Shown here in pieces: positions 1,108 through 60,413 of a stretch of 64,000 bases of DNA; the first letter of the stretch is position 1; each line of letters starts with the position of its first letter. This DNA comes from a virus, in the IMG/VR virus record IMGVR_UViG_3300030060_006317, positions 1 through 64,000 of that record. One strand, given 5' to 3'. The translations under genes and the position numbers were made by a program. The notes below the pieces were generated by a model. The model worked only from the letters and a program-made list of their open reading frames with translations, was not told the DNA's origin and ran no database searches.

Positions 1108-2274
1108 ATGTCTAACATGCTAGAACAAGCAATCGCAGATGCGGCAGCTTTGAGAGAACAAGCAATTAAAAACGCTGAACAATCAGTAATTGAAAAATAC
1201 TCACATCAAATTAAAGAAGCCGTAGAGCAAATGCTTGAAGCAGAAGAGGATCCAACAAAGAAAGTGGATGAAGTTTTAGCAGAAGCCGAAGAAGAACTAA
1301 TGCAAGAAGAAGAAGCTGCAGCACCAGCAATGGATGCCACACAAACCACTGAGTTTGATACGCCAGCCGCTTGGGATTCTCGCTTTGATGATATTTCATC
1401 TAGACTAACTGCAATGGTAGACAACCTACCGGAAGATGAGAATGGAATGATTAATTTAGACCTTGGCGATTTTGATGTTCCGGAAGAAGAAGAACAAGCC
1501 GCCTCAGGCGACCTAGGATCCGATTTAGGAGACCTTGGCGATCTTGGAGAGGAAATACCCGATCAAGAAGCTGAAGACGATTTAGACAACCTTCTTGGAG
1601 ACATATCTGATGATGAAACTGAAACCGTCGATGATGATGATTTAGATTTTACATTACAAGAAATGGAAGAGATCGTTGGAGACATTTTAAGTGAAAAGAC
1701 TGAAATTGACTTTGACCCAATAAATGATGAACTTGGACATCATATGACAAACAGATCTAGAAAAGAAAGAAACCAAGAAATGGCCGAGATAGTCTACGAA
1801 GAAGTGTCTGAAGATGAAGACGCTGAAGAAGTAGAAGAAGAAAAAGAATTAGGCCGAACTAACGAATTACAAGAGACAATTGAGCTTCTAGTTCAACAAA
1901 ACAAGCAATTGGAAAATGTCCTTACCAAGATGGAATCATATCTTGAGGAAGCTTTATTGTCAAACGCAAAACTTTTATACCAAAACCGCACACTAGGCGA
2001 TGCCTCCCTGAATGAGCGACAAAAATCAAAAATTGTCGAAGCCATAGCCAATGCGGAGTCTCCGAAAGAAGCTAAAACACTTCATGAGACACTCAAAGCT
2101 ACAGTGGGGTCGACGCCTAATAGCAATAAAGGCCCACAATCACTTAGCGAGTCAGTCAACAGAAGATCGAACTTAAGTTCTATGCTGAATTCAAGACAAA
2201 ATATTAACGAAAGCAAGCAGAGCGCTGATCCGTTTTTGGAAAAGATGCAGAAGCTTGCGGGCATTAAAAAATAG
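1108..2274 (+). CDS. prohead core/scaffold protein (gp22-like, by position and composition)
   Basis: 388 aa, strongly acidic, almost free of Cys and dominated by Glu, Asp and coiled-coil segments (about residues 1-75 and 245-300). It lies directly upstream of the major capsid gene, where T4-like phages keep the prohead core protein on which the shell assembles. The N-terminus is amphipathic helix (residues 1-40). The C-terminus is Ser/Asn-rich and ends in a short basic tail, a common shell-binding element of scaffolds. Sequence identity to T4 gp22 cannot be judged by eye; the call rests on context. The start has a good SD (aggagat, 1097-1103). Confidence 0.65.
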   Translation: MSNMLEQAIADAAALREQAIKNAEQSVIEKYSHQIKEAVEQMLEAEEDPTKKVDEVLAEAEEELMQEEEAAAPAMDATQTTEFDTPAAWDSRFDDISSRLTAMVDNLPEDENGMINLDLGDFDVPEEEEQAASGDLGSDLGDLGDLGEEIPDQEAEDDLDNLLGDISDDETETVDDDDLDFTLQEMEEIVGDILSEKTEIDFDPINDELGHHMTNRSRKERNQEMAEIVYEEVSEDEDAEEVEEEKELGRTNELQETIELLVQQNKQLENVLTKMESYLEEALLSNAKLLYQNRTLGDASLNERQKSKIVEAIANAESPKEAKTLHETLKATVGSTPNSNKGPQSLSESVNRRSNLSSMLNSRQNINESKQSADPFLEKMQKLAGIKK

Positions 2275-2284
2275 GAGATTTAAA

Positions 2285-4150
2285 ATGTCTATTATCGAAA
2301 CATTAACAGAGGGCATCGTCAACCGTGATATGGGGAAAGAAGGTGCTGCTCTTTTAGACAAGTGGAGCCAAACTGGTCTACTTGAAGGGTTGTCTAATGA
2401 CACCCAAAAATCAAACATGGCACGTTTACTTGAAAACCAAGCCAAGTCATTATTGAAGGAAGCTTCTTCTATGACTGCTGGTGACGTTGAAGGTTTCGCT
2501 GCTGTTGCTTTTCCAATCGTTCGTCGTGTATTCGCTGGATTGATTGCTAACGATCTTGTAAGTGTTCAACCGATGTCATTGCCATCTGGTTTGATTTTCT
2601 TCCTTGACTTCGTATTTTCTGATAATATCGGAACCAGAACTGATAACTCAAGAAGTGGTAACACTGCTGGGCAATCAATCTATGGTACTGATCGTGTTGG
2701 TTCTCAAATCATCAATGGTGTTAACCTTGAAGGAACTCAAGGCGGAGACCTTTCTGGTCCTGGCCGTGGTGGTGCAACTGGTTATGCTTACGCTTCACCA
2801 ACTGGATCTAATGTTGCGACAGCAACAAGCGCTGATGACTGTGCTTCTGTTGCAATTTTTAAATTGGACGGATCACTCACAGAAACTAACGCAAAATTGA
2901 TTCAATTTGACCCAGACCTAATGGCTCAAACCACAACTGGATGTATCATTTTTGATGTTGCAGATGATCATCTTCCAAATGCAGATTTTGATAATCTTTC
3001 TGCTTTCTCTTTGGAAGACATTTTCAATAACACCACCGGTGGTAATGACATTACATCATTTATTAATGGTCAAGCTGGGGTTTCTGGTCTTGCTGTAGGA
3101 GAACTTCAGCAAGTTCGCCGTTTGACTTCTCGCGTTGCTTCTGATTCACGCGGAGCACCATTTCAATCTGGTATTACCAGTCAAGCTGCTGCTACTCGTT
3201 TTGTAGTTACTTTTACAAACGGATCTGACGTTGCAACTGAAACAAATACCGCTGAGGCAGCTGCAACAATTATTGATGCAGCAAAAATTAAATTTCCTCA
3301 GAGAGATTCAATTACTGAAAAATCAAACGGTGTTGGTGCTATTGACGGTTACACAATGCTATTGGAAAATGAACAAGAGATTCCAGAGATCGACATCAAG
3401 GTAGACTCAACAGCAATCACAGCTCAAACTAAAAAGTTGAAAGCAAAGTGGACTCCTGAATTAGGACAAGACTTAAACGCTTATCACAACATTGATGCTG
3501 AGGTTGAATTGACTTCTATCCTTTCAGAGCAAATTGCTTTGGAAATTGATCGTGAGATTCTTGCTGATCTTGTAAATGGCGCAACTGCTGCTACTTACTA
3601 CTGGTCTCGTTCACCTGGTTTATTTGTAAACCGCGAAACTGGTTCTGAACTTGGTGCAACTTCTGCTGCTCCTGACTTCACTGGAACAGTTTCTGAATGG
3701 TATGAAACTCTTGTTGAAACTATCAACGACGTTTCTGCACAAATTCACAGAAAAACCCTCCGTGGCGGTGCTACTCACATCGTTTGCTCTCCTGAAGTTG
3801 CAAACATTCTTGAGTTCACCTCTGGATTCCGTGCAAACGTAACTGCTGATGCAGATCGTGGAGATATCGGCGCAATGAAAGCTGGTTCTTTGAATCGTAA
3901 ATTCGACGTTATCGTTGATCCTTACTTCCCACGTAACGTTGTATTGGTTGCTCGTATCGGATCTTCTTTCCTTGAAAGCGGATATGTGTACGCACCATAT
4001 GTACCACTACAAACTACACCAACAATCTTCGGACCAGAAGACTTCGTTCCTCGTAAGGGAGTCATGACTCGCTATGCGAAGAAAATGGTTCGTCCGGATA
4101 TGTACGGTCTCGTTATCTGTCGTGGACTTCTAGGAGAAGAAGGATCCTAA
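2285..4150 (+). CDS. gp23: major capsid protein (gp23-like)
   Basis: 621 aa from the ATG at 2285, which has a GGAG SD at 2272-2275; an in-frame TTG start 30 nt upstream is less likely. The first 60 residues match the T4 gp23 propeptide pattern, with ARLLENQ near residues 46-52 (compare KIFENQ in T4) and a likely prohead-protease site L57-K-E59|A60. The following FPIVRRVFAGLIANDLVSVQPM segment and the C-terminal region with VVDPYFPRN-like strands are typical of the HK97-fold T4 capsid family. The mature protein would start at Ala60. Codon use shows the many CGT/GGT codons of a highly expressed gene. Confidence 0.93.
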   Translation: MSIIETLTEGIVNRDMGKEGAALLDKWSQTGLLEGLSNDTQKSNMARLLENQAKSLLKEASSMTAGDVEGFAAVAFPIVRRVFAGLIANDLVSVQPMSLPSGLIFFLDFVFSDNIGTRTDNSRSGNTAGQSIYGTDRVGSQIINGVNLEGTQGGDLSGPGRGGATGYAYASPTGSNVATATSADDCASVAIFKLDGSLTETNAKLIQFDPDLMAQTTTGCIIFDVADDHLPNADFDNLSAFSLEDIFNNTTGGNDITSFINGQAGVSGLAVGELQQVRRLTSRVASDSRGAPFQSGITSQAAATRFVVTFTNGSDVATETNTAEAAATIIDAAKIKFPQRDSITEKSNGVGAIDGYTMLLENEQEIPEIDIKVDSTAITAQTKKLKAKWTPELGQDLNAYHNIDAEVELTSILSEQIALEIDREILADLVNGATAATYYWSRSPGLFVNRETGSELGATSAAPDFTGTVSEWYETLVETINDVSAQIHRKTLRGGATHIVCSPEVANILEFTSGFRANVTADADRGDIGAMKAGSLNRKFDVIVDPYFPRNVVLVARIGSSFLESGYVYAPYVPLQTTPTIFGPEDFVPRKGVMTRYAKKMVRPDMYGLVICRGLLGEEGS

Positions 4151-34931: not shown

Positions 34932-36785
34932 ATGGATTTGGAGAAAAAGATCTTATCAGATATAACGGTTCACATGAAGTATGCCCGATATCTCGAAAAT
35001 AAAAACCGTAGAGAAAATTGGGACGAATTGGTAACTCGTAATATGGAAATGCATATTAAAAAGTTTCCAAAATTAGAAAAAGAAATTAGAAAAAATTATG
35101 AGTTTGTTTATGATAAGAAGGTTCTTCCATCAATGCGCTCAATGCAATTTGGAGGTAAACCAATTGAAGTTTCTCCGAACAGGATATTTAATTGTGCTTA
35201 TGCACCAGCAGATGATCCGAGAGTTTTTGGAGAGATCATGTTTCTTCTTCTTGGCGGAACTGGTGTGGGTTATTCTGTGCAAAAACATCACGTTGAAAAC
35301 TTACCCGAGATACGAAGACCCACTAATAGAAGCAGAAGGTTTCTCATTGGAGATTCAATTGAAGGATGGGCGGACGCAGTTAAATTACTAATGCAGTCTT
35401 ACTTTAAAGGTACTTCAAAAATAAGATTTGACTTCTCAGATATCCGTCCAAAGGGAGCTAGACTAGTTACATCCGGCGGAAAGGCTCCAGGTCCACAACC
35501 GCTTAGAGAATGTTTGGTAAAAGTAGAGGGAATTTTAGATGCTAAAGAAAATGGTGACAAACTCACTCCTATTGAGGTGCATGATATCATCTGTCATATT
35601 GCCGATGCTGTTCTGGCGGGAGGTATTCGCCGCGCTGCTCTCATTTCTTTATTCTCGGCTGATGACGAAGAAATGCTCGGAGCCAAAACTGGAGCATGGT
35701 GGGAACTCAATCCCCAACGTGGACGAGCTAACAACTCCGTAGTTGTAATGCGGCACCGCATTGACAAGCCGACTTTTATGGATTTGTGGAAGCGAGTTGA
35801 AGAATCAAGATCTGGAGAGCCGGGATTTTATTTCTCCAATGATAAAGAGTGGGGTTGTAACCCTTGTTGCGAAATTGGCTTGAGGCCTTTTCAATTTTGT
35901 AACTTAGTTGAAATAAATGTTTCAGATGTTGCAGACCAAGTAGACCTCAATCAAAGAGCAGCCGCTGCAAGCTTCATAGGCACCCTTCAAGCGTCTTATA
36001 CTGACTTTCACTACCTAAGACCTGTTTGGAAGCGTACAACAGAAAGAGACTCCCTTATTGGTGTATCTATGACTGGGATAGCTTCAGGCGGAGTATTAGA
36101 TTTGGATATGTCCGAAGCTTCTTTGCAAGTATCAAAAGAGAATAATCGAGTGGCAAGTGCCATCGGCATCAGACCAGCCGCCCGACAAACTTGTGTAAAG
36201 CCTGCTGGAACAACATCTCTCACTCTTGGAACTTCAAGTGGAATCCATGCGTGGCACAATGACTATTATATACGTAGATTACGCGTTGGAAAGAATGAAG
36301 CAATTTACCAATATATTACCCAGAATCTCCCAGAATTGATTGAGGATTGTCGATTCCGACCTCATGATACTGCTATTCTTTCTGTTCCTCAAAAATCTCC
36401 TGCCGGGGCAATAACGCGTCACGAGAGTGCTATTGATTTGCTCGAGAGAGTAAAGAAGGTTTCCAATGAATGGATTAGGCCTGGTCATAAAAATGGTAGC
36501 AATACTCATAATGTATCAGCCACGGTAACTATTAAAGATGGAGAGTGGGAAAACGTTGGAGAGTGGATGTGGAAAAATAGAAAAGTATACAATGGATTGT
36601 CCGTTCTTCCACATGATGGCGGTACATATATTCAAGCTCCATTTGAAGATTGTAGTAAAGAAACTTATGAAAACATGCTCTCATTACTAAAAAATGTAGA
36701 TTTGGACCTAGTTATAGAGACAACAGATGAAACTGATTTAAGCGGAGAGATCGCTTGTGGCGGTGGCGCCTGTGAAATTTTCTAA
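34932..36785 (+). CDS. nrdJ: adenosylcobalamin-dependent (class II) ribonucleotide reductase
   Basis: 617 aa, the single-chain class II type. The catalytic region NPCCEIGLRPFQFCNLVEIN (about 312-331) and the C-terminal redox pair CGGGAC at the very end match the monomeric B12 enzymes such as RtpR. It makes deoxyribonucleotides without oxygen but needs cobalamin. An N-terminal MRSMQFGG and a RRAALISLF segment agree with the family. No separate small subunit is seen. Upstream sequence shows no obvious cobalamin riboswitch. Confidence 0.9.
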   Translation: MDLEKKILSDITVHMKYARYLENKNRRENWDELVTRNMEMHIKKFPKLEKEIRKNYEFVYDKKVLPSMRSMQFGGKPIEVSPNRIFNCAYAPADDPRVFGEIMFLLLGGTGVGYSVQKHHVENLPEIRRPTNRSRRFLIGDSIEGWADAVKLLMQSYFKGTSKIRFDFSDIRPKGARLVTSGGKAPGPQPLRECLVKVEGILDAKENGDKLTPIEVHDIICHIADAVLAGGIRRAALISLFSADDEEMLGAKTGAWWELNPQRGRANNSVVVMRHRIDKPTFMDLWKRVEESRSGEPGFYFSNDKEWGCNPCCEIGLRPFQFCNLVEINVSDVADQVDLNQRAAAASFIGTLQASYTDFHYLRPVWKRTTERDSLIGVSMTGIASGGVLDLDMSEASLQVSKENNRVASAIGIRPAARQTCVKPAGTTSLTLGTSSGIHAWHNDYYIRRLRVGKNEAIYQYITQNLPELIEDCRFRPHDTAILSVPQKSPAGAITRHESAIDLLERVKKVSNEWIRPGHKNGSNTHNVSATVTIKDGEWENVGEWMWKNRKVYNGLSVLPHDGGTYIQAPFEDCSKETYENMLSLLKNVDLDLVIETTDETDLSGEIACGGGACEIF

Positions 36786-36795
36786 GGAGAAAAAT

Positions 36796-36990
36796 ATGAG
36801 AGACCAACTAGAAAAAATTATTGCCAACCTTCAAGGAATCCTTGATGAACTTGACAAAGTTGAAGCAGGATCTTATGGATATAAGTCTGCCGCTCCTCGT
36901 GCAAGAAAGGCTCTTATGGAAGCCTCAAAAGAACTTCGCGATGTAAGAACAATAGTTCAAGAAGTCAAAAATTCTCATGAACAAAAGTAA
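36796..36990 (+). CDS. small histone H1-like (Hc1-type) helical protein
   Basis: 64 aa from the ATG at 36796 (AAGGAG SD). The pattern LDELDKVEAG, then PRARKALMEASKEL and a final helix resembles the N-terminal domain of chlamydial Hc1 and similar small nucleoid proteins, which have a helix-turn-helix with KAAA-RAR-type repeat. It lacks the long basic tail. It may bind DNA or RNA; the match is by eye and weak. Confidence 0.5.
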   Translation: MRDQLEKIIANLQGILDELDKVEAGSYGYKSAAPRARKALMEASKELRDVRTIVQEVKNSHEQK

Positions 36991-37062: not shown

Positions 37063-37353
37063 ATGCATTTTGAACCATTCAATAGACACTTATGGGTAAT
37101 GCCGCAATTAAAAAACTCAACACTTGATGAAAAACTTTTTGTCATGCCTGATGAGTATGTTCCGGCAAAAGATCCATTTACTGTTTGTGAGATTATTGGA
37201 ATATCTGACGATTGCGAATTGCAATTGAAACTTGGCGACACAATTATTGTTGATACCACTACACTTTTGGAATTAAAAGCCAAAAATGAAACTATTTACG
37301 TTGTTCAAGAAAACTACGTCTATGGGAGATTGGAGAATGAAATTAACCAGTAA
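37063..37353 (+). CDS. GroES-like co-chaperonin (gp31-like)
   Basis: 96 aa from the ATG at 37063 (GGAGGA SD; the ATG at 37051 is part of it). The pattern PFNRHLWVMP, then FVMPDEYVPAKDPFTVCEIIG, LKLGDTIIVD and a final YVVQENYVYGRL matches the GroES beta-barrel with a mobile loop (about residues 16-27). GroES and T4 gp31 cap GroEL. The phage also encodes a GroEL at 58842, although far away. Overlaps the next gene by 17 nt. Confidence 0.65.
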   Translation: MHFEPFNRHLWVMPQLKNSTLDEKLFVMPDEYVPAKDPFTVCEIIGISDDCELQLKLGDTIIVDTTTLLELKAKNETIYVVQENYVYGRLENEINQ

Positions 37354-37939
37354 AAAATTAAAACAAATGATTAAAGAGGCTCTAGAGGAAAAAAAGGGTG
37401 CATCAAAGTATGAAGATGTTATCGCAATCCTCGAGGGTAGCAACAAAGATGTTAAAACAATTGGAATCATGTCGGGCCAAAACCCAATGGCCCAAGCATC
37501 ATCTCCTGATGACAACAAGAGACTAAAAACCAGCCTTGAAGAAAGACTGCAAGAACTTGGTCTTGATTTTATTAGAATCGGCGGTAAGTTTATGGGGATC
37601 TTTGAACAATCAGTCCTCATCCTTAACCCAGAAGATGAAGATCAAATGGAAGTTTTGAATAGAGAATATACTCAATGGGGTTTTGTATATGGAGAGAAGT
37701 ATCCAATTGATGCTGAAAAATCTTTTATGGTCTTTACGATGTACGAAGTTGATTATGACAACCCAATGGGACACCGCAAAGCGCCTGGATCAAAGCAGGT
37801 TGGAAAGCCGATTAGAAATCAAGATATGACCAGTACAGATGATAATTATTCCTATATTCCTGGTAAAGGAAATCCTGAAGGTGGAGATCCTAAGGTTAAG
37901 AAGAAATTTGGTTTAGAACTCTATGAAGAGGACCAATGA
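37337..37939 (+). CDS. tagged protein with DUF3293-like domain
   Basis: 200 aa from the ATG at 37337 (GGAG SD), where it gains the MKLTSKKLKQMIKEAL helix shared with six genes at 42-45 kb; M11-I12-K13-E14 offers a possible prohead-protease site. The rest is a globular domain with TIGIMSGQNP, RLQELGLDFIRIGGKF and ESVLILNP-like strands (about residues 35-125), which resembles DUF3293, and a Gly/Lys-rich end. Function unknown. It overlaps thyX by 4 nt (ATGA). Confidence 0.6.
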   Translation: MKLTSKKLKQMIKEALEEKKGASKYEDVIAILEGSNKDVKTIGIMSGQNPMAQASSPDDNKRLKTSLEERLQELGLDFIRIGGKFMGIFEQSVLILNPEDEDQMEVLNREYTQWGFVYGEKYPIDAEKSFMVFTMYEVDYDNPMGHRKAPGSKQVGKPIRNQDMTSTDDNYSYIPGKGNPEGGDPKVKKKFGLELYEEDQ

Positions 37940-38619: not shown

Positions 38620-38857
38620 ATTTAAAAAAGGAGATCTTGTTTTCTTTCGGAAATTTAAAATTATACCGAAAAAACCTTCTCTGGGAATAGTTGTCTCAGA
38701 GCCTCAATTGATGTTCGTTCATGATTGGGAAATGATACCTCACCCATATAAGAATTATTGGTGTTACAATATAATCGCTGAAGAACAACTATTTAAAGAC
38801 ATACCTGAAGATATGTTAAGGAGTGTTAATGATGAAGATGAAAAATATTCTGAATGA
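38600..38857 (+). CDS. small SH3-like protein
   Basis: 85 aa if the GTG at 38600 is used; TTG at 38588 and GTG at 38591 are alternatives, none with a strong SD. FKKGDLVFF, LGIVVSEPQLMFVHDW and the YNIIAE strand follow the GDxV/GIV pattern of the other small SH3-like proteins here. Overlaps thyX by 20 nt and the next gene by 29 nt. Confidence 0.5.
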   Translation: MKSGNPKFKKGDLVFFRKFKIIPKKPSLGIVVSEPQLMFVHDWEMIPHPYKNYWCYNIIAEEQLFKDIPEDMLRSVNDEDEKYSE

Positions 38858-39587
38858 ATGGAAGAAGTTTACCATTCAAGAAGCAAAAAATGACGGACTA
38901 TATCAAGCTATGCGCGTACAGCCTGGATCTTTAGATATATTTCTTAGACATTTTGTTGAAGATAATCCGCATGCCGATAATAAAATCAGAAGTTGGATTG
39001 AATCAAACTACAAAGACCAAATTGAAGCAGTACGAGAAGAAGATATTCCTCCAACAGACCTTAGAGGACACAGAGATAGACTTACAAAAGTAAAAAACGC
39101 TCTCTACGGAGGTCAGTCATATTGGTGGGCAACTATTTTTCCGGGATATGACGCAGCCAGAGATTTGGTTAATTATAAAACAGAACTTTACTATGATGAT
39201 CTCCGAGCTGCTATTGAAGGTTTACAATATAATGGTAAAGGGTATCGAGAAGTAACTTCTGAAGAATTTGAAGCAATGCCAGAAGAGCAAAGAAATGTTT
39301 CATATGAAAAGCATTTTTGGGAAGATTACTTGGAGAGTTTTTTCAACAACTTTATTGGAGGTACCCAAGCTACGAATACAATGGATTATGTTGGAGCAAA
39401 AGGAGTTCAGACTGGGTTGTTTGGCCAATTGAAAGATTGGTGGATGGGAGGAGAAGGAATGCCTGTGTGGAAAGGTTCTTTTAGAAGGGAGAGAGATGCT
39501 CTCTATCAAGAATTTAGAAGACCACAGGATCCGGAAGAAGGTAGGCAAGAGGTGATACCATCAAAAGAATCCCCGTTCAAAAAATAG
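38829..39587 (+). CDS. possible internal head protein (N-terminal targeting peptide)
   Basis: 252 aa; AAGGAG 5 nt before the ATG at 38829. The N-terminus MKNILNEWKKFTIQEA (residues 4-19) ends in I-Q-E|A, like the T4 internal-protein propeptide site (FIAE|A). The gene at 46456 starts in the same style. The body has aromatic-rich helices (YWWATIFPGYDAARDL, HFWEDYLESFFNNF) and a charged C-terminus. No enzyme family is recognised. The presumed role is a protein carried inside the head. Confidence 0.5.
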   Translation: MMKMKNILNEWKKFTIQEAKNDGLYQAMRVQPGSLDIFLRHFVEDNPHADNKIRSWIESNYKDQIEAVREEDIPPTDLRGHRDRLTKVKNALYGGQSYWWATIFPGYDAARDLVNYKTELYYDDLRAAIEGLQYNGKGYREVTSEEFEAMPEEQRNVSYEKHFWEDYLESFFNNFIGGTQATNTMDYVGAKGVQTGLFGQLKDWWMGGEGMPVWKGSFRRERDALYQEFRRPQDPEEGRQEVIPSKESPFKK

Positions 39588-42001: not shown

Positions 42002-42619
42002 ATGAAAATTACTAATGAAGAATTGATTCAAATCATCAAAGAGGAGCTAATCGCTGTCATTGATGAAAAGAAAGGAAAGAAGCGTAAAGCTGCCAAAAAG
42101 AAGCGAAGAAAGAAAAAGAAAGCTAAAAAAGCTAAGAAAGATGCTTGCTATCACAAAGTGAAATCTCGCTATGATGTGTGGCCATCTGCTTATGCTTCCG
42201 GTGCTCTTGTTAAGTGCCGCAAGGTTGGAGCTGCCAACTGGGGCAACTCAAAGAAAGAAGGTTTAGACGAAGAGTTTAAGCCACACGATATGTATGACCC
42301 AGAGACTGGCGAGAAGCACGATGCCGAAGTTGAAGCCGATCATGTTGATATGGCAGGCAAGGGCTTCGTCCATGTTGATCCGAAGAAGATTGAGAAGATC
42401 CTCCGTGATGAAGGCGGCGCTGCTGGAATGGATCCGTTCCTGAAAGAGTTCGGAGAAGAGATGGAAGAGGAAATTCTCAAAGCATTGGAAGAAATGCCAA
42501 GTGTCGCTCAACACGAAGATGGAGACTACATCCTTGATGATGACAAAGACGTCAACCTTCAAGAAGCAAAGAACTGTGGATGTGGCCAAGATCCCTGCAA
42601 GACTTACGGAAAACAATAA
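42002..42619 (+). CDS. tagged basic protein 1 (probable internal head protein)
   Basis: 205 aa. N-terminus MKITNEELIQIIKEEL (I12-K13-E14 site) is followed by an extremely basic Lys/Arg stretch (about residues 22-46), the segment YHKVKSRYDVWPSAYASGAL (about 50-69) with a CRKVGAANWG continuation, then an acidic half with Glu/Asp repeats. The KSRYxVWPSAYASGALVKCRKVG motif is one I have seen in other phage virion proteins, though no function is established that I know of. A DNA- or core-binding role inside the head is inferred. It starts the tandem tagged operon. Confidence 0.6.
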   Translation: MKITNEELIQIIKEELIAVIDEKKGKKRKAAKKKRRKKKKAKKAKKDACYHKVKSRYDVWPSAYASGALVKCRKVGAANWGNSKKEGLDEEFKPHDMYDPETGEKHDAEVEADHVDMAGKGFVHVDPKKIEKILRDEGGAAGMDPFLKEFGEEMEEEILKALEEMPSVAQHEDGDYILDDDKDVNLQEAKNCGCGQDPCKTYGKQ

Positions 42620-43570
42620 ATGAAACTCACCAATGAAGAACTATTGCAGATCGTCAAAGAAGAGCTTGATGCCGTTTTGAATGAAAAGTGTCAGAAAGGC
42701 TACAAAACTCACGAGAAGAGAAAAACAAAAAAAATGTTTGGAAGGACTTATCGCAATTGCATAAAGGCAGAAGAGGGAATGGAAGAGGAAAAAAATCCTA
42801 GAATTCCAAGAAAGAAAGGACAACCTGCTAAGAGCAAGAAACACTCCGATCTATACACAGATGAAGATCCAAAAGGAACAATCCATGGACTAAAGTTTGC
42901 CACAGAAGCAGATGCTAAAAAGAGTGTGGCTAAGATTAAGAAATCTGGAAGATCTCACGCCCACAAAGTTCAGGCTGCTGTAGCGATGGAACAGAGAGCA
43001 AAAGCTGCCGGCAAGAAAAGTGCTGCCGCAGTTTACAGAAAATACATTAACTCCGTCAAAAAAGAAGAAGTTTATTCAGAAAAGCAACGAAGATACATGT
43101 GCGCTATGGCAGAGCCTGATGCAGACAGACCAGATGGTTTGAGCCAAGCTGAAGCTGAAGAAATGTGCAAAGGTCCAATGAAAAAAGAAGCCAAAGCATA
43201 TCATTGGGATGAGCCCAATTGGCATTATGATGGTGGCTATGGCGATCCTGAAGGTCCTGATTCCAAGTGGTATATGACTGAAGCGGAGCTTGAAGAGAAA
43301 AAGAAAAAGCGTAAGAAAGCTGGAACTGAGTCCAGCAAAGAGTCTTCCCTCCGCGACTGGTTTGGTCGTAAAGGAGCAAAAGGCAAGAAGAAAGGTTGGG
43401 TTGATTGTAATGCCCCCGACGGCAAAGGTGGATACAAGTCTTGCGGTCGTGGATCAGGCGAGAAAAGAAAGAAGTATCCTGCATGTCGTCCAACTCCCGG
43501 CGCATGTAAAGAAAGAGGTAAAGGAAAGTCTTGGGGTAAAAAAGCTAAAAAACAAGGAAAAAGAAAATGA
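42620..43570 (+). CDS. tagged basic protein 2 (probable internal head protein)
   Basis: 316 aa. N-terminus MKLTNEELLQIVKEEL, with V12-K13-E14, leads into a Lys-rich region. There are Ala/Lys motifs (AHKVQAAVAMEQRAKAAGKK) around residues 112-131, a YMCAMAEPDAD segment, and a C-terminal Cys/Gly-rich block GWVDCNAPDGKGGYKSCG and YPACRPTPGACKERGKGKSW (about residues 262-309), which resembles zinc- or disulphide-rich motifs seen in phage virion proteins. It abuts the previous gene and overlaps the next by 4 nt. Confidence 0.6.
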   Translation: MKLTNEELLQIVKEELDAVLNEKCQKGYKTHEKRKTKKMFGRTYRNCIKAEEGMEEEKNPRIPRKKGQPAKSKKHSDLYTDEDPKGTIHGLKFATEADAKKSVAKIKKSGRSHAHKVQAAVAMEQRAKAAGKKSAAAVYRKYINSVKKEEVYSEKQRRYMCAMAEPDADRPDGLSQAEAEEMCKGPMKKEAKAYHWDEPNWHYDGGYGDPEGPDSKWYMTEAELEEKKKKRKKAGTESSKESSLRDWFGRKGAKGKKKGWVDCNAPDGKGGYKSCGRGSGEKRKKYPACRPTPGACKERGKGKSWGKKAKKQGKRK

Positions 43571-44091
43571 AATTAACAGAAGAAATATTAAAAGAATTAA
43601 TTAAAGAGGTTTTAGATGAAGGTCGTCTTCCCGATATTCCTGGTGTTTACCGAAATCCATTTACCGGAGAAGACTTAACACCAGAGCAAAAAGCTCGTCT
43701 TGATCAACCACTAGACCTAACACTAGACAAGCCAGCTTGGTTCCTTGATCTTAAAATGAGATATAAAGCAGAGAATCGAACCCCAGAGGAGAAAGCAGCG
43801 TTTGCTGATGAGTTGGCCCAAAGGGAACGTGACGATCAAGCTCGAATAGATCGAGAGATTGAGAGAGAGCGCCAAAGAGAAAAGAATTTAGAGCGTGACC
43901 GTATGGATTACCTTAAAACTACAAAAGCCTCACACGGTGGAAAGTTTCCAATACCTGGTCCCGATGGAGAGATGACTGTCCGAGGCGTTGGTGTCTTGGA
44001 AGATCCACCAGAAGATCCACCTCTAAGAGCAGTTCCATCTCGCCGTAGGAGAAGAACCTCTGGTCCATTGCGCGAAGGTAAAGAGAAATGA
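43567..44091 (+). CDS. tagged protein 3
   Basis: 174 aa. N-terminus MKLTEEILKELIKEVLDEG; L11-I12-K13-E14. The middle is charged with Arg/Glu-rich helix (QRERDDQARIDREIERERQR, about 98-117), followed by a GGKFPIPGPDGEM segment and a basic Arg cluster. Overlaps the upstream gene by 4 nt (ATGA) and the next gene by 4 nt (ATGA). Confidence 0.55.
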   Translation: MKLTEEILKELIKEVLDEGRLPDIPGVYRNPFTGEDLTPEQKARLDQPLDLTLDKPAWFLDLKMRYKAENRTPEEKAAFADELAQRERDDQARIDREIERERQREKNLERDRMDYLKTTKASHGGKFPIPGPDGEMTVRGVGVLEDPPEDPPLRAVPSRRRRRTSGPLREGKEK

Positions 44092-44567
44092 AAATCACAT
44101 CAGAAAATTTAAAGCAAATTATCAGAGAAGAGCTAGAAACTGCCATCTTTGAAGATGTGATCGAAGAAGAGGGGCTTTTGTACGAAGGAGACGATTCAAT
44201 CCTTGAAGTGTTTGAGGATGCAACCCTTGAAGAAGGTGGACACGCTTGTGGTGCTTGTCTGTTTGAAATGTTGCAAGAAGCATCTTGTGGCTGCCCTGAT
44301 CTTATGGGCGAAGCCGTGTATCAAGGCAAGACCGTTCAACTTAACAAGCCAACCCGTGGCGATGTCAAGAAGTTCAAGGTATATGTCAACTCAGGCAAGA
44401 AAGATAAGGAAGGACGAGTCAAGGCAAAGAAAATTAACTTTGGAGACAAAAAGATGAAAATCAAGAAGTCAAACCCAAAGCGAAGAAAATCTTTTAGAGC
44501 ACGACATAAGTGCCACACAGCGAAGGATAAGAAGACCGCCCGTTATTGGTCTTGCAAAAAGTGGTAG
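44088..44567 (+). CDS. tagged protein 4 with Cys-rich and basic C-terminus
   Basis: 159 aa. N-terminus MKITSENLKQIIREEL (I12-R13-E14), an acidic region, then a Cys-rich CGACLFEMLQEASCGCPD segment (about residues 57-74), and a basic C-terminus FRARHKCHTAKDKKTARYWS (about 137-156) ending CKKW. The FRARHxCxxAKDKxTARYWSCxxW pattern is known to me from other phage structural proteins and probably binds zinc or nucleic acid. Overlaps the previous gene by 4 nt. Confidence 0.6.
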   Translation: MKITSENLKQIIREELETAIFEDVIEEEGLLYEGDDSILEVFEDATLEEGGHACGACLFEMLQEASCGCPDLMGEAVYQGKTVQLNKPTRGDVKKFKVYVNSGKKDKEGRVKAKKINFGDKKMKIKKSNPKRRKSFRARHKCHTAKDKKTARYWSCKKW

Positions 44568-44575
44568 GAACTAAA

Positions 44576-44809
44576 ATGAAATTAACTAAAGAACAATTAA
44601 AGCAAATTATCTCAGAAGAACTTGAGACTTTTCAAGAGCAAGAAGGTCAAGAAGGATCATTTTTGCAAATTTCTGTATCAAACGATGGATACGATATAGA
44701 CATTGAACAAATATCGAATCCCGATGAAGTTAATATTGATGTATCCGAGAATCCATATGTTGCCTACAGAGCAGTTGTAAAAGTTATAAAATCAAGCGGA
44801 GAACTCTAA
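44576..44809 (+). CDS. tagged protein 5, small
   Basis: 77 aa from the ATG at 44576. N-terminus MKLTKEQLKQIISEEL (I12-S13-E14), an acidic linker, then a short beta/helix domain with SFLQISVSND and VAYRAVVKVIK. The longer frame from 44546 lies within the preceding gene and is rejected. The fold is not recognised. Confidence 0.55.
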   Translation: MKLTKEQLKQIISEELETFQEQEGQEGSFLQISVSNDGYDIDIEQISNPDEVNIDVSENPYVAYRAVVKVIKSSGEL

Positions 44810-44810
44810 A

Positions 44811-45134
44811 ATGAAACTTACAAAAGAACAGCTAAAACAAATCATCAAAGAAGAGCTTCAGGCTGTTCTAAGGATGAATGAAGGCTACGAGGATTATGAA
44901 GATCATCCACTTTACAAGAAAATTATAGAACTAAACGCCGAAGCCGAAGAGGCTTTAGATGAATACATTGATTCAACTGAGGATGATTGGCTATCAGACT
45001 ATGTAGAGCAGGTTGAAGTAAAAGGTCTCGATGCTGTTGCAAGAGAGTGGATTAGTGATCTTGAGCAAGGCGCACTGGGAGATCAGCTTGCTGCATTTGC
45101 TGCACAAGACAAGAGTGATGCTTTTTATCACTAA
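44811..45134 (+). CDS. tagged protein 6, acidic
   Basis: 107 aa. N-terminus MKLTKEQLKQIIKEEL, identical to the consensus with I12-K13-E14, then an acidic helical region (LNAEAEEALDEYIDS). Last of the six tandem tagged genes. It starts 1 nt after the previous gene, so the block is one transcript. Confidence 0.58.
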   Translation: MKLTKEQLKQIIKEELQAVLRMNEGYEDYEDHPLYKKIIELNAEAEEALDEYIDSTEDDWLSDYVEQVEVKGLDAVAREWISDLEQGALGDQLAAFAAQDKSDAFYH

Positions 45135-46455: not shown

Positions 46456-47208
46456 ATGAAATTAATTTTAGAAAGTTGGAGAAAGTTTCAAGATTTGGAT
46501 GAAGCTACCAGAAGAGACTTGATTCGCGGAGCCGCCGCTGGTGGTGCTCTTACCGCTGCAGGCGCTAATATTTTCGGCGATGATGATGTGGAGCCTGAAG
46601 ATATAGCCAAAGCTACACAAGAAAAAGAAAAGGCTGCAAAAATAGATTATGGAAAAGAAGCTCTATCAAAACTTAGGTGGGTTCCAAATGTTGAGAATTA
46701 TTATTTAGCACCAGCTACTGACACTTCGACTGGACAATCATATGTTTATATACCTCTGTCAATGCTTTATGATATGGCCGATACCGACAATGATCTTTTC
46801 ATGGATGTTGATGATGCAAAAGACTTTTATTTAAATTGGACTATAGGTCAAATTCACAGGTATGTTTTTGGAGAATTAGCATTTTGGGGAACCGAAGTTA
46901 GTGATGACCCGAATAGTATGAAGTTGGCACAAACCATGACTGTTAAAAACAATCGAAACCAATCTGTAGTATTGAAAAAACTTCCTATAGCGTGGACTGT
47001 ATCGATGAATGTTTGGCTTGATAGAATGGTCAATTTCGACGGAGAACTATCGAGATCCACAGCAACTCAAAAAAGACAATTAATGATTGACCAACAAGTA
47101 AGCGAAAGTAGTTACAAAAAACTTCTTCAAGATTACGAGAGGGTTATGAATAGCCTAAACAATCCAGTTACGGTAAAAAACCCAGACTATTTTGTACCAC
47201 TACAATAG
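46456..47208 (+). CDS. hypothetical protein with capsid-targeting-like N-terminus
   Basis: 250 aa. The first residues, MKLILESWRKFQDLDEA (L14-D-E16|A17), match the second type of possible capsid-targeting peptide seen also at 38829. A Gly/Ala-rich hydrophobic stretch (about 24-40) follows, then a globular alpha/beta body with YVYIPLSMLYDMADTDND near 95-112 and a helical C-terminus. Unlike the other tagged genes it lies behind a sigma70 promoter. Confidence 0.5.
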   Translation: MKLILESWRKFQDLDEATRRDLIRGAAAGGALTAAGANIFGDDDVEPEDIAKATQEKEKAAKIDYGKEALSKLRWVPNVENYYLAPATDTSTGQSYVYIPLSMLYDMADTDNDLFMDVDDAKDFYLNWTIGQIHRYVFGELAFWGTEVSDDPNSMKLAQTMTVKNNRNQSVVLKKLPIAWTVSMNVWLDRMVNFDGELSRSTATQKRQLMIDQQVSESSYKKLLQDYERVMNSLNNPVTVKNPDYFVPLQ

Positions 47209-54798: not shown

Positions 54799-55347
54799 AT
54801 GGCTAAAAAAACTTTGAACGAGGCAGTTGTTCGTCGCTTCCAAAAACTTGCGAACCTTGCCCCTATTAACGAAATGTATAGTATGCGTGACGAAGAAGAA
54901 GAAAAAATGGAAGAAACCATTGAAGAAACATACATGGAAGCTGAAGAAGAACCAGCAGCTGAAATGGATGCACCTGAATTACCCGAAGAAGAACCAGAGA
55001 TGGACGTGGAAGATGGAGATCTTGAGCTTTCTGACGAGGAAGCATTAGCGATCATCGAACTTGGAAAAAAACTCGAAGCTGCGATGGGTGATGAAGAGGA
55101 AGTAGAACTCGATATGGACGACGCACCAGAGATGGATGAGGAAGAGCCAGCTCCAATGATGGAGACAGAAGAGATCAACGAAGAAGAAATCAACGAAGAA
55201 GAAGAGTTAGCGGAAGCACTATCTGAAGTTGAGTATGTTCCTTCTCAAAACGAAATTGTTAATGAAGTTGCTCGTCGAGTTGCATTGCGTCTTAAGCAAG
55301 CAAAATTGCACGAAGCAAAATTGAAAGAAGCCTTAGGTCGTAAGTAA
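54799..55347 (+). CDS. acidic prohead-core-like protein
   Basis: 182 aa, very acidic with Glu/Asp-rich repeats (residues 25-150). The N-terminus MAKKTLNEAVVRRFQKLANL contains L6-N-E8|A9, a candidate prohead-protease site. The C-terminal helix (VARRVALRLKQAKLHEAKLK, near residues 155-174) is basic and coiled, as in scaffold proteins. It has a late-type motif upstream. Together with the gene at 1108 it may form the prohead core. Call is by composition and context. Confidence 0.55.
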   Translation: MAKKTLNEAVVRRFQKLANLAPINEMYSMRDEEEEKMEETIEETYMEAEEEPAAEMDAPELPEEEPEMDVEDGDLELSDEEALAIIELGKKLEAAMGDEEEVELDMDDAPEMDEEEPAPMMETEEINEEEINEEEELAEALSEVEYVPSQNEIVNEVARRVALRLKQAKLHEAKLKEALGRK

Positions 55348-55428: not shown

Positions 55429-55797
55429 ATGAAACTACTAATCGTTTCTTTTTTGTTTGGCTGCTGCCTGACTTATTTATTAACTCTCATATCATCATCC
55501 ATAAAAGCTGCTAAAGTTTTGGAAGATGCTATGACCACTTATGCAATAATGATGGTTTCATCTTATGAGGTAAGTTTAATCAGTCTTGAAAAAGAAATAA
55601 TATCTTTAAAACTAGAAAACACTCAAGCAGAAAGAAAAAGAAAAATTCACAACAAGGCTTTTGAAGTATTTGCAAATAATCAAATAAAACAGACTTTAAA
55701 TTTCATACCAATTATACATGAAAATATCATAAATTTTAAAAATTTTAAAGAATTAAGGACCTATATCGAAAGCAAAACAGGGAGAAACCATGATTAA
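55429..55797 (+). CDS. hypothetical membrane-anchored protein
   Basis: 122 aa from the ATG at 55429 (GGAGG SD). The N-terminus is a hydrophobic span (about residues 2-24) with an LFGC motif at 9-12 that could also be a lipobox. The rest is a charged coiled-coil-like region to the C-terminus. Overlaps the ClpP-like gene by 8 nt. Role unknown. Confidence 0.5.
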   Translation: MKLLIVSFLFGCCLTYLLTLISSSIKAAKVLEDAMTTYAIMMVSSYEVSLISLEKEIISLKLENTQAERKRKIHNKAFEVFANNQIKQTLNFIPIIHENIINFKNFKELRTYIESKTGRNHD

Positions 55798-56455
55798 TTT
55801 TGATAAAAAGAAAAAGAAAACTAAAAAATCCAAGGAGGAAGTATGCGAAGAAGAAGAGGAAGAGCAACAAGAACAGATAACCTTAGTGGACCTCTTAGGA
55901 GGAGCTGCAGAAGACGCCGGGCCAGAAGCCCGAAGCATAATGTTTGTTGGAGAAGTAACCGAGGAGCGAGCAGCTGATCTTTGTTCGGCACTGCTTGTTT
56001 TAGCGCAAACAAAAGACGAAGAGGAAGATAGAGCTGAAGACATTAAACTTTACTTGTCAACCTATGGTGGTTCTGCAGACGAGATGTTTGGAATCTATGA
56101 CGTAATGAATTTTTGCAAACAATTTTGTGACATTGAGACTATTGGACTTGGGAAAGTTATGTCTGCAGGAACCTTACTGCTTGCAGCAGGAACTGAAGGC
56201 AAGAGAAAACTTGGGAAGCATTGCCGCGTAATGATACATTCTGTTAATGGCGGTTCTGTTGGAGAATTGCACAATCTGAAGAACGAAATGGAACAAATCG
56301 CCGGTCTTCAAGACTCGTATATTCAAGCTCTATCTTCGGAGACAAAAATGACGAAAAGACAAATCCAGACACTAATTAACAGAAAAGTAAATGTATATCT
56401 TTCCGCTGACGAAGCGATTGAGAAAGGTTTGGCAGATGGAGTTCTAGATGGATAA
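55790..56455 (+). CDS. ClpP-like serine protease
   Basis: 221 aa. A Lys- then Glu-rich N-terminus precedes a ClpP/S14 fold: strand LYLSTYGGSADEM (about 87-99), Ser125 in KVMSAG, His150 in MIHSV (25 residues on, as in E. coli ClpP) and the final LSADEAIEKGLADGVL. The position of the third catalytic Asp holds Asn201 (NVYLS versus DRFLS), an unusual change. It may degrade or process host or phage proteins; a role as prohead maturation protease is an alternative. Followed by the endolysin gene with an 8-nt overlap. Confidence 0.75.
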   Translation: MINFDKKKKKTKKSKEEVCEEEEEEQQEQITLVDLLGGAAEDAGPEARSIMFVGEVTEERAADLCSALLVLAQTKDEEEDRAEDIKLYLSTYGGSADEMFGIYDVMNFCKQFCDIETIGLGKVMSAGTLLLAAGTEGKRKLGKHCRVMIHSVNGGSVGELHNLKNEMEQIAGLQDSYIQALSSETKMTKRQIQTLINRKVNVYLSADEAIEKGLADGVLDG

Positions 56456-58841: not shown

Positions 58842-60413
58842 ATGCAAAAACATTATAAGCAAGGCTCCCCTCTCAATCAAGCGATTGTCGAGGGGGTTAA
58901 TATTTTGGCGGATAATGTGTCCGCTACGCTCGGCCCTCGCGGCCGGACTGTTGCTTTATTTCACAAGGAACAAGGCATACCTGTACTTACGAAAGACGGC
59001 GTTACCATCGCTGAGTTCATTGATCTTGAAGATCCATTTCAAAATCTTGGAGCACAAGTTATCAAACAAGCAGCGAAACAAACCGTTGAGACCGCCGGTG
59101 ATGGAACCACGACCTCAACTGTGTTGGCTAGAGCAATCTTGACTGAAGGTCAGCGCTATTTAACATCGGGAATCTCTCCTGTTGAATTAAAACGTGGGAT
59201 CGACAAGGCTGTTGATTCAATTGTTGAAAGACTTGATGACCTGTCAAGACCAATTGAGACTGTGGAAGATATCAAACACATCGCAACTATCTCTTCCAAC
59301 AATGATACGACAATCGGAACTCTTATTTCTACTGCTGTTGACAGAGCGGGCAAAGATGGTTCTGTGCTTGTAGAAGAAGCTCGAAGTATGAAGACTTCTC
59401 TGGATCTTATAGAAGGCTTTAGATTTGATTCTGGGTACCTTAGTAGCCAATTTATTAACAATGAAAGAAATGGAACCGTAGATTACGACAATCCTCTCAT
59501 TCTTATCACAGATGAGAAGATCGAAGTCATCGATCAGATCATGCCAACGTTGGAAATTGCCGCAAGAGACTCTAGACCACTAATTATTGTAGCAAATGAC
59601 GTTGAAGGTCAAGCTCTCGCTGCTTTAATCGCAAACTCTATTCGAGGAACGATGAAAATTGCAGCAGTTCGTGCACCAAAGTACGGAGAGGAGCGAAGAA
59701 ACATTCTTAAAGACCTTTGTGCTTCAGTCGGAGCAACGTTTATCTCTAGAGAAAAAGGCCTTTCTTTAAGAGAAGTCAAGCTAAACGACTTTGGTCAATC
59801 AAAGTCTTTGAATATTACAAAAGGCTGGACAACGATTGTTGGAGGAAAAGGAAATTATGAAGAAATCGAAACGAGGATCACTGCGATCAAAAATGAAATA
59901 CACCAAACAGAAAATCTTCAAGAATGCGAGAGGTTACAGGAAAGAATTACCCGTCTTGCTTCTGGTGTTGCTGTCATTCGAGTTGGCGCAGCTACTGAAG
60001 TCGAAATGATTGAAAAGAAGCATCGCATTGATGATGCTTTAGAAGCTGTCAGATCAGCACAAGAAGAAGGTATTATCCCAGGAGGGGGTGTAGCGCTCGT
60101 AAGAGCGGTCACAGGGCTTTCTGTGGAGACATCTAATGAAGAGCAAGCCCTTGGTGCTCAAATCGTTTTAAGGGCATGTGAAGCGCCTTTAAGAACAATG
60201 GCAAGAAATGCTGGAGAGTCTGAGGATATAATTTTACAAATGGTGCGCGACGCACAAGGAGACAAAGGATATGATTTTCTTAACAGATGCGTGGTTAGCA
60301 CGTATGAGAGGGGCATCATCGACCCCAAAAAAGTAACAAGATGTGCATTACAGAACGCCGCTTCGGCAGCGTCCACTTTGTTGACAACATCTCATGCCAT
60401 TGTCAAAGTTTAA
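58842..60413 (+). CDS. groL: GroEL-like chaperonin
   Basis: 523 aa. It has the GroEL ATP-binding GDGTTTST (86-93, Asp87 as in E. coli), LGPRGRTV, LTKDGVTIA, and a C-terminal GGGVAL and GIIDPKKVTR region. It lacks the GGM-repeat tail and ends SHAIVKV. Phage GroEL homologues are rare; it would refold phage proteins or replace the host chaperonin with the GroES-like protein at 37063. It has its own sigma70 promoter and GGAGG SD. Confidence 0.95.
   Translation: MQKHYKQGSPLNQAIVEGVNILADNVSATLGPRGRTVALFHKEQGIPVLTKDGVTIAEFIDLEDPFQNLGAQVIKQAAKQTVETAGDGTTTSTVLARAILTEGQRYLTSGISPVELKRGIDKAVDSIVERLDDLSRPIETVEDIKHIATISSNNDTTIGTLISTAVDRAGKDGSVLVEEARSMKTSLDLIEGFRFDSGYLSSQFINNERNGTVDYDNPLILITDEKIEVIDQIMPTLEIAARDSRPLIIVANDVEGQALAALIANSIRGTMKIAAVRAPKYGEERRNILKDLCASVGATFISREKGLSLREVKLNDFGQSKSLNITKGWTTIVGGKGNYEEIETRITAIKNEIHQTENLQECERLQERITRLASGVAVIRVGAATEVEMIEKKHRIDDALEAVRSAQEEGIIPGGGVALVRAVTGLSVETSNEEQALGAQIVLRACEAPLRTMARNAGESEDIILQMVRDAQGDKGYDFLNRCVVSTYERGIIDPKKVTRCALQNAASAASTLLTTSHAIVKV

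Follow-up and report, generated by a model that had tools for sequence, protein, structure and literature searches.

A shared N-terminal leader on tandem genes of a T4-type phage and its relatives: a probable prohead-core targeting sequence

The stretch of DNA considered here, called the window, comprises bases 1-64000 of the 70,195-base virus record IMGVR_UViG_3300030060_006317, which belongs to a marine, uncultured virus of bacteria. Six consecutive genes on its + strand, at 42002-45134, open with the same short peptide, M-K-[LI]-T-x-E-x-L-x-[QE]-[IL]-[IV]-x-E, with [IV]-x-E at residues 12-14 each time (Table 1); this peptide is referred to as the tag. The six tandem copies had been described in an earlier interpretation made from the letters of the window alone (the sequence-only reading), and a tag profile agrees with it; the seventh copy which it placed at 37337 was also recovered by the profile. 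Exactly these seven copies were found in the whole contig with a profile of 22 residues, and the relatives proposed at the start and the C-terminus of the 57337 gene did not reach E<=0.01. The bodies behind the leaders had been called unrelated, which holds for most of them; those of 42002 and 42620, however, have phrog_727 modules in common. Modules of the 42620 gene are shared with cyanophage proteins and with proteins of Flavobacterium phage immuto. The basic, Cys-containing phrog_727 and phrog_7595 modules of cyanophages (e.g., P-SSM2 PSSM2_123, SynMITS9220M01_097) correspond to modules in the bodies of 42002, 42620 and 44088; the cyanophage genes have neck and terminase genes as neighbours, and their proteins are without the tag.

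Table 1. Leader copies and head genes in the window (the slash marks a putative cut)
Feature	Positions	Strand	Remarks
Leader, residues 1-14, MKITNEELIQIIKE	42002..42043	+	205-aa Lys-rich gene 42002-42619; body matches phrog_727
Leader MKLTNEELLQIVKE	42620..42661	+	316-aa Lys/Cys-containing multi-module gene 42620-43570
Leader MKLTEEILKELIKE	43567..43608	+	174-aa gene 43567-44091
Leader MKITSENLKQIIRE	44088..44129	+	159-aa gene 44088-44567 with basic Cys-containing C-terminal module; phrog_7595
Leader MKLTKEQLKQIISE	44576..44617	+	77-aa gene 44576-44809; starts at an ATG inside the 44546 open reading frame
Leader MKLTKEQLKQIIKE	44811..44852	+	107-aa acidic gene 44811-45134; homologue L043:3033 retains the leader
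Seventh leader copy MKLTSKKLKQMIKE	37337..37378	+	DUF3293-domain gene 37337-37939; starts at an ATG inside the 37286 open reading frame
Second leader class MKNILNEWKKFTIQE, putative cut before A	38838..38882	+	Gene 38838-39587; layout W-x-x-F-x-I-x-E, like that of the T4 capsid-targeting sequence
Second leader class MKLILESWRKFQDLDE, putative cut before A	46456..46503	+	Gene 46456-47208
T4-type gp23 major capsid protein	2285..4150	+	Putative maturation site LLKE/A at 2450-2461, residue E59
gp22-like prohead scaffold	1108..2274	+	Putative, from position, acidity and a C-terminus FLEKMQKLAGIKK common to relatives

Searched with a degenerate DNA pattern of the tag, IMG/VR viral contigs gave at least 118 matching stretches; a codon-shuffled control pattern gave no viral matches, and the tag pattern itself had no matches in 257 Gb of prokaryote genomes. 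A position matrix set 262 distinct tagged proteins, from 119 loci, apart from everything else, its threshold being reached by none of 41,332 shuffled 16-mers. When residues 1-2 were excluded from scoring, the tag stood at a start codon in 345 of 351 matches, i.e., it is a short shared N-terminal leader, as is characteristic of the capsid-targeting sequence (CTS) class known from phage T4. Searching cultured phages with the 22-residue tag by tblastn yielded nothing even at E<=10, a result made uninformative by the short query and by low-complexity filtering; profile searches of named genomes were therefore used instead. T4, P-SSM2, Syn9, HTVC008M, phiM12, RM378 and Mel-JY01 gave no profile match and immuto a weak one.

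Tandem arrangement, with as many as 18 consecutive genes, could suggest a cassette acting at the DNA or RNA level, in which recently duplicated gene starts serve as a translation-initiation region or as recombination homology and the peptide is incidental. This is contradicted by the seven tags of the window, in which the choice among synonymous codons is close to random from copy to copy (110 of 206 identical, against 90.5 expected from codon usage) and whose upstream regions differ; conservation of the peptide, moreover, extends to very divergent phages. The codon comparison indicates that the peptide has been kept by selection on the protein and not by recent copying of DNA; recent duplication of gene starts was rejected as its origin on these grounds, and a cassette appears very improbable.

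Among 26 long tag records, that of the window included, gp23 was present in 14 and Peptidase_S77, the gp21-type prohead protease (S77 in the following), in 16. On 32 shorter tag fragments the S77 gene was found 15 times, while 3-5 occurrences would be expected under random placement of the tag in genomes of 120-190 kb (P 2e-5 to 5e-8). Tag phages possess, therefore, both the gp23-type capsid protein and the gp21-type protease which accompany targeting sequences of the CTS class, and a capsid of the HK97-type family was found in none of 48 tag records. Two long tag contigs without S77 (G001 and G004) were considered as possible members of another phage type; this was rejected, since both have T4-type baseplate wedge genes, and they look like fragments. 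The closest cultured relatives of the window's capsid protein are those of immuto, Microcystis phage Mel-JY01 and Rhodothermus RM378, none of them reaching 50% identity. In immuto, genes 187, 191 and 199 were noticed to have tag-like starts, and gene 192 (L123:10532-13057) contains a copy within its sequence; this phage may be the closest cultured system for experiments.

A looser tag pattern matched five stretches in prokaryote genomes, all of them in contigs of marine metagenome-assembled genomes (MAGs), and three of the four MAGs concerned contain an S77 gene. These stretches were considered as cellular examples of the tag; at least one of them, the 305-kb contig, is a mis-binned phage, since S77, capsid and scaffold genes share the contig with the tags. 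In the Halobacteriovorax MAG tags and S77 are on separate contigs; the Opitutia MAG has no S77, and its tag contig carries many CTS-like leaders. In the records tested the tag is restricted to T4-type phages. Large arrays occur among the MAG contigs: those labelled Halobacteriovorax and Methylococcaceae (L190 and L191; G060:C25, and 183-213 kb of G061:C5) have 15-18 tagged genes in a row, with runs of 18 and 6 successive genes in the 305-kb phage and of 15 in another contig. Variant tag-like starts are also present within the S77-capsid cluster of a large-array phage.

Conservation within the leader was counted in tags which had been chosen on residues 2-11 only. Residue 12 was I in 96% (I, V or L in 100%), E14 was present in 97%, E15 in 88% and L16 in 61%, and residue 13 was free. 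A set of 46 tags from two large phages had E14 in 100%, with 4.3 bits at position 14, 2.4 at 15, 1.2 at 16 and about 1 or less thereafter. This collapse of conservation right after E14 fits a functional unit which ends there, and the leader closes with L/I-x-E, the motif after which gp21 cleaves (PMC9026906). About half of the first tag set has a second [ILVM]-x-E at residues 20-22. In the capsid proteins of 11 tag-bearing relatives [LI]L[RK]E/[AS] precedes the mature domain, the window having LLKE/A; this is probably the cut site of the capsid protein, because T4 gp23 has FLTE/A. The capsid site [LI]-[LI]-[KR]-E has the same P4-P1 residues as I-I-[KR]-E of the tag. For the 44811 protein, AlphaFold predicted the leader to be helical at residues 5-21, with low confidence.

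Thirty proteins in tag loci, two of them in the window (38838, 46456), begin with a second leader, MKLLxENWRxFLxE. Residues 12 and 14 were left unused in their selection; E14 was nevertheless found in 24 of the 30, and four more have a hydrophobic-Q-E ending at residue 15. Its register is E6, W8, F11, L12 and E14, so that both leaders have E6, hydrophobic residues at 8, 11 and 12, and E14, the same layout as in T4 IPIII, MKTYQEFIAE/A, where Y4, F7, I8 and E10 correspond to tag positions 8, 11, 12 and 14. Mutational work on the T4 CTS, reviewed in PMC9026906, assigned residues 4 and 7 mainly to targeting and residues 8 and 10 to processing. The second class is closer to the T4 CTS than is the tag. 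Either leader can precede homologous bodies, as in the pairs L092/L053 (56% over 64 aa), L011/L083 (60-69%), L072/L108 (63% over 35 aa) and L062/L013 (30% over 127 aa).

Tagged genes are also linked to the protease gene by position. In 9 of 13 distinct loci a tagged gene directly adjoins S77, compared with 2.7 expected when labels were shuffled within the same loci (P=5e-5), and the positions thus occupied are the places of T4 genes 67, 68 and 22. In the 484-kb phage LR756508 a run of tagged genes follows shortly after the S77 gene, with a second array near 190 kb.

From these sequence data the shared N-terminus is probably (at roughly 0.78) a leader of the T4, CTS type, which would target proteins to the prohead core and be removed by the gp21-type protease, with the bodies retained in the head. 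The proposal in the sequence-only reading, that these are internal head proteins loaded by a common tag which is cut by such a protease, gains support from the S77 linkage, the near-invariance of I12 and E14, the match with the capsid cut site and the exchanges with a T4-CTS-like leader. We infer a sequence of core docking, cleavage, location in the virion and injection. The 14 residues, as an amphipathic helix M-K-[LI]-T-x-x-x-L-x-x-[IL]-[IV]-x-E, would dock the new precursor on the prohead core as it grows; the S77 serine protease would cut behind E14 and, in many cases, a second time behind the other [ILVM]-x-E at 20-22 (E22); the freed bodies would remain in the head together with the DNA and would presumably be injected at infection.

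Several observations weigh against this reading. The tagged bodies are acidic on average, with a median of -0.034 charge per residue compared with -0.011 in other small proteins; a few tagged proteins are enzyme-like (exonuclease-like, polynucleotide-kinase-like, DnaJ) and could act in the cytoplasm; and a 576-aa protein (L098:2997-4724, - strand) has the tag at its start and three internal copies besides, which a pure leader would not need. The longest tagged arrays are far from S77, and P1' is mostly E in the tag, A or S in the capsid protein. Virion proteomics or cleavage data were not found for any phage with the tag. Finally, the window contig, which begins about 1 kb upstream of the scaffold gene, contains gp23 and no protease gene; in relatives this gene precedes the capsid gene by roughly 10-12 kb, and the protease region falls beyond the left end of the window contig. 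The 576-aa protein is possibly a polyprotein that would be cut into several internal peptides. Basic cargo of the kind represented by the T4 internal proteins (IPs) was not supported, the tagged bodies being without the basic character of IPs.

The acidity of the bodies and the four tag copies in one protein would also suit a different role, namely that of a core-assembly helix in gp67/gp68-like proteins which build the scaffold and are mostly chopped and expelled at maturation, instead of being retained and injected. Like T4 gp67 and gp68, which are part of the core and are cleaved by gp21, tagged proteins are small and are encoded beside the protease, in the very positions of those genes; gp67 has LIKEE-like stretches (LIKE/E as well as FLIE/G), and a similar helix, QIKEAVDQMLE, is present in the scaffolds of tag phages. 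However, gp67 and gp68 have no common N-terminal leader and are single conserved genes, not an interchangeable set of cargo, whereas the tagged bodies are extremely diverse, vary between related phages and include enzyme-like domains; many of the arrays are distant from head genes, as are the T4 ip genes. A core-assembly function is therefore considered unlikely.

With respect to the scaffold, a third N-terminal motif was noticed, RRFQKLANLAPINE in the window (54799-55347) and FRRMQKLAGIITE in immuto gene 188 (L123:8201-8665). It is similar to the peptide conserved at the C-terminus of the gp22-like scaffold, whose gene in the window is at 1108-2274 (EKMQKLAGIKK and related forms); judging by this likeness, the binding peptide of the scaffold itself may be mimicked by some of the cargo.

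An amphipathic helix that occurs on diverse and partly enzyme-like proteins could, on the other hand, serve as a docking site for a partner outside the head which would recruit many phage proteins; this might be some complex in the cytoplasm or a protease adaptor, for which the phage ClpP at 55790 is an example; the window phage does encode ClpP and a chaperonin. Such a partner would not account for the linkage between tagged genes and the prohead protease, nor for the near-invariance of I-x-E, the match with the capsid cut site or the exchange with a CTS-like leader, and it is regarded as quite improbable.

When the tag is compared with the T4 CTS, carried by IPI, IPII, IPIII and Alt, both appear as short N-terminal leaders common to otherwise different proteins of one phage; both end with hydrophobic-x-E after two spaced hydrophobic residues, and both occur together with a T4-type capsid and an S77 protease. 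The sequences are different, since the tag lacks the M-K-T-[YF]-x-E-F form, the T4 ipI and ipIII sequences differ from the tag, and only the spacing of hydrophobic residues and glutamate is common. The tag is usually 14 residues long, compared with 10-19 in the T4 CTS, and is often followed by the second [ILVM]-x-E. It has many carriers per phage, in arrays of up to 18 genes, compared with a handful in T4, and the bodies are not generally basic. The phages in which it occurs have few relatives in culture. In the giant phages SPN3US and phiKZ, a protease related to gp21 cuts after x-x-E and so removes N-terminal propeptides of inner-head (ejection) proteins (PMC5694885); these propeptides differ from the tag in sequence and are mostly much longer, several exceeding 100 residues.

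The modular use of one tag on diverse cargo had been presented in the sequence-only reading as a packaging toolkit not described before. This was too strong, as a leader of this kind is common to IPI, IPII and IPIII of T4, and it has been proposed that T4-like phages generally load various proteins by means of the CTS, with variable cargo in T-even phages being discussed (PMC9026906). Literature searches on the tag string, on DUF5872/phrog_727 and on the immuto phage proteome returned nothing on this leader, and no paper describing it was found. We conclude that the CTS concept was already known from T4 and that the leader family, its spread and the arrays of up to 18 genes are new.

More tentatively, and with somewhat less than even confidence, it is proposed that a widespread, largely uncultured marine lineage of T4-type phages uses one interchangeable 14-residue leader, together with a second class in the same register, for loading many proteins (dozens in some phages) into the virion, that the arrays encoding them, of about 18 genes at most, can be swapped, and that these proteins are injected into the host as a variable effector kit. 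If true, the leader would be a CTS-like means by which proteins could be loaded into the heads of phages outside the T4 group, and its sequence signature would predict, for marine T4-type phages, the "hypothetical" genes whose products are packaged and probably injected. Since related viruses have the label on hundreds of their genes, it could provide a list of candidate proteins carried into cells; hundreds of unknown proteins would become testable candidates for early takeover of the host or for anti-defence.

Some further genes of the window phage may be mentioned. A full-length chaperonin of the cpn60 type (523 aa) is encoded at 58842-60413 and a ClpP-like protease at 55790-56455. A small protein of 77 aa at 36757-36990 showed a match to the histone H1-like Hc1 family, which was weak but above the cut-off.

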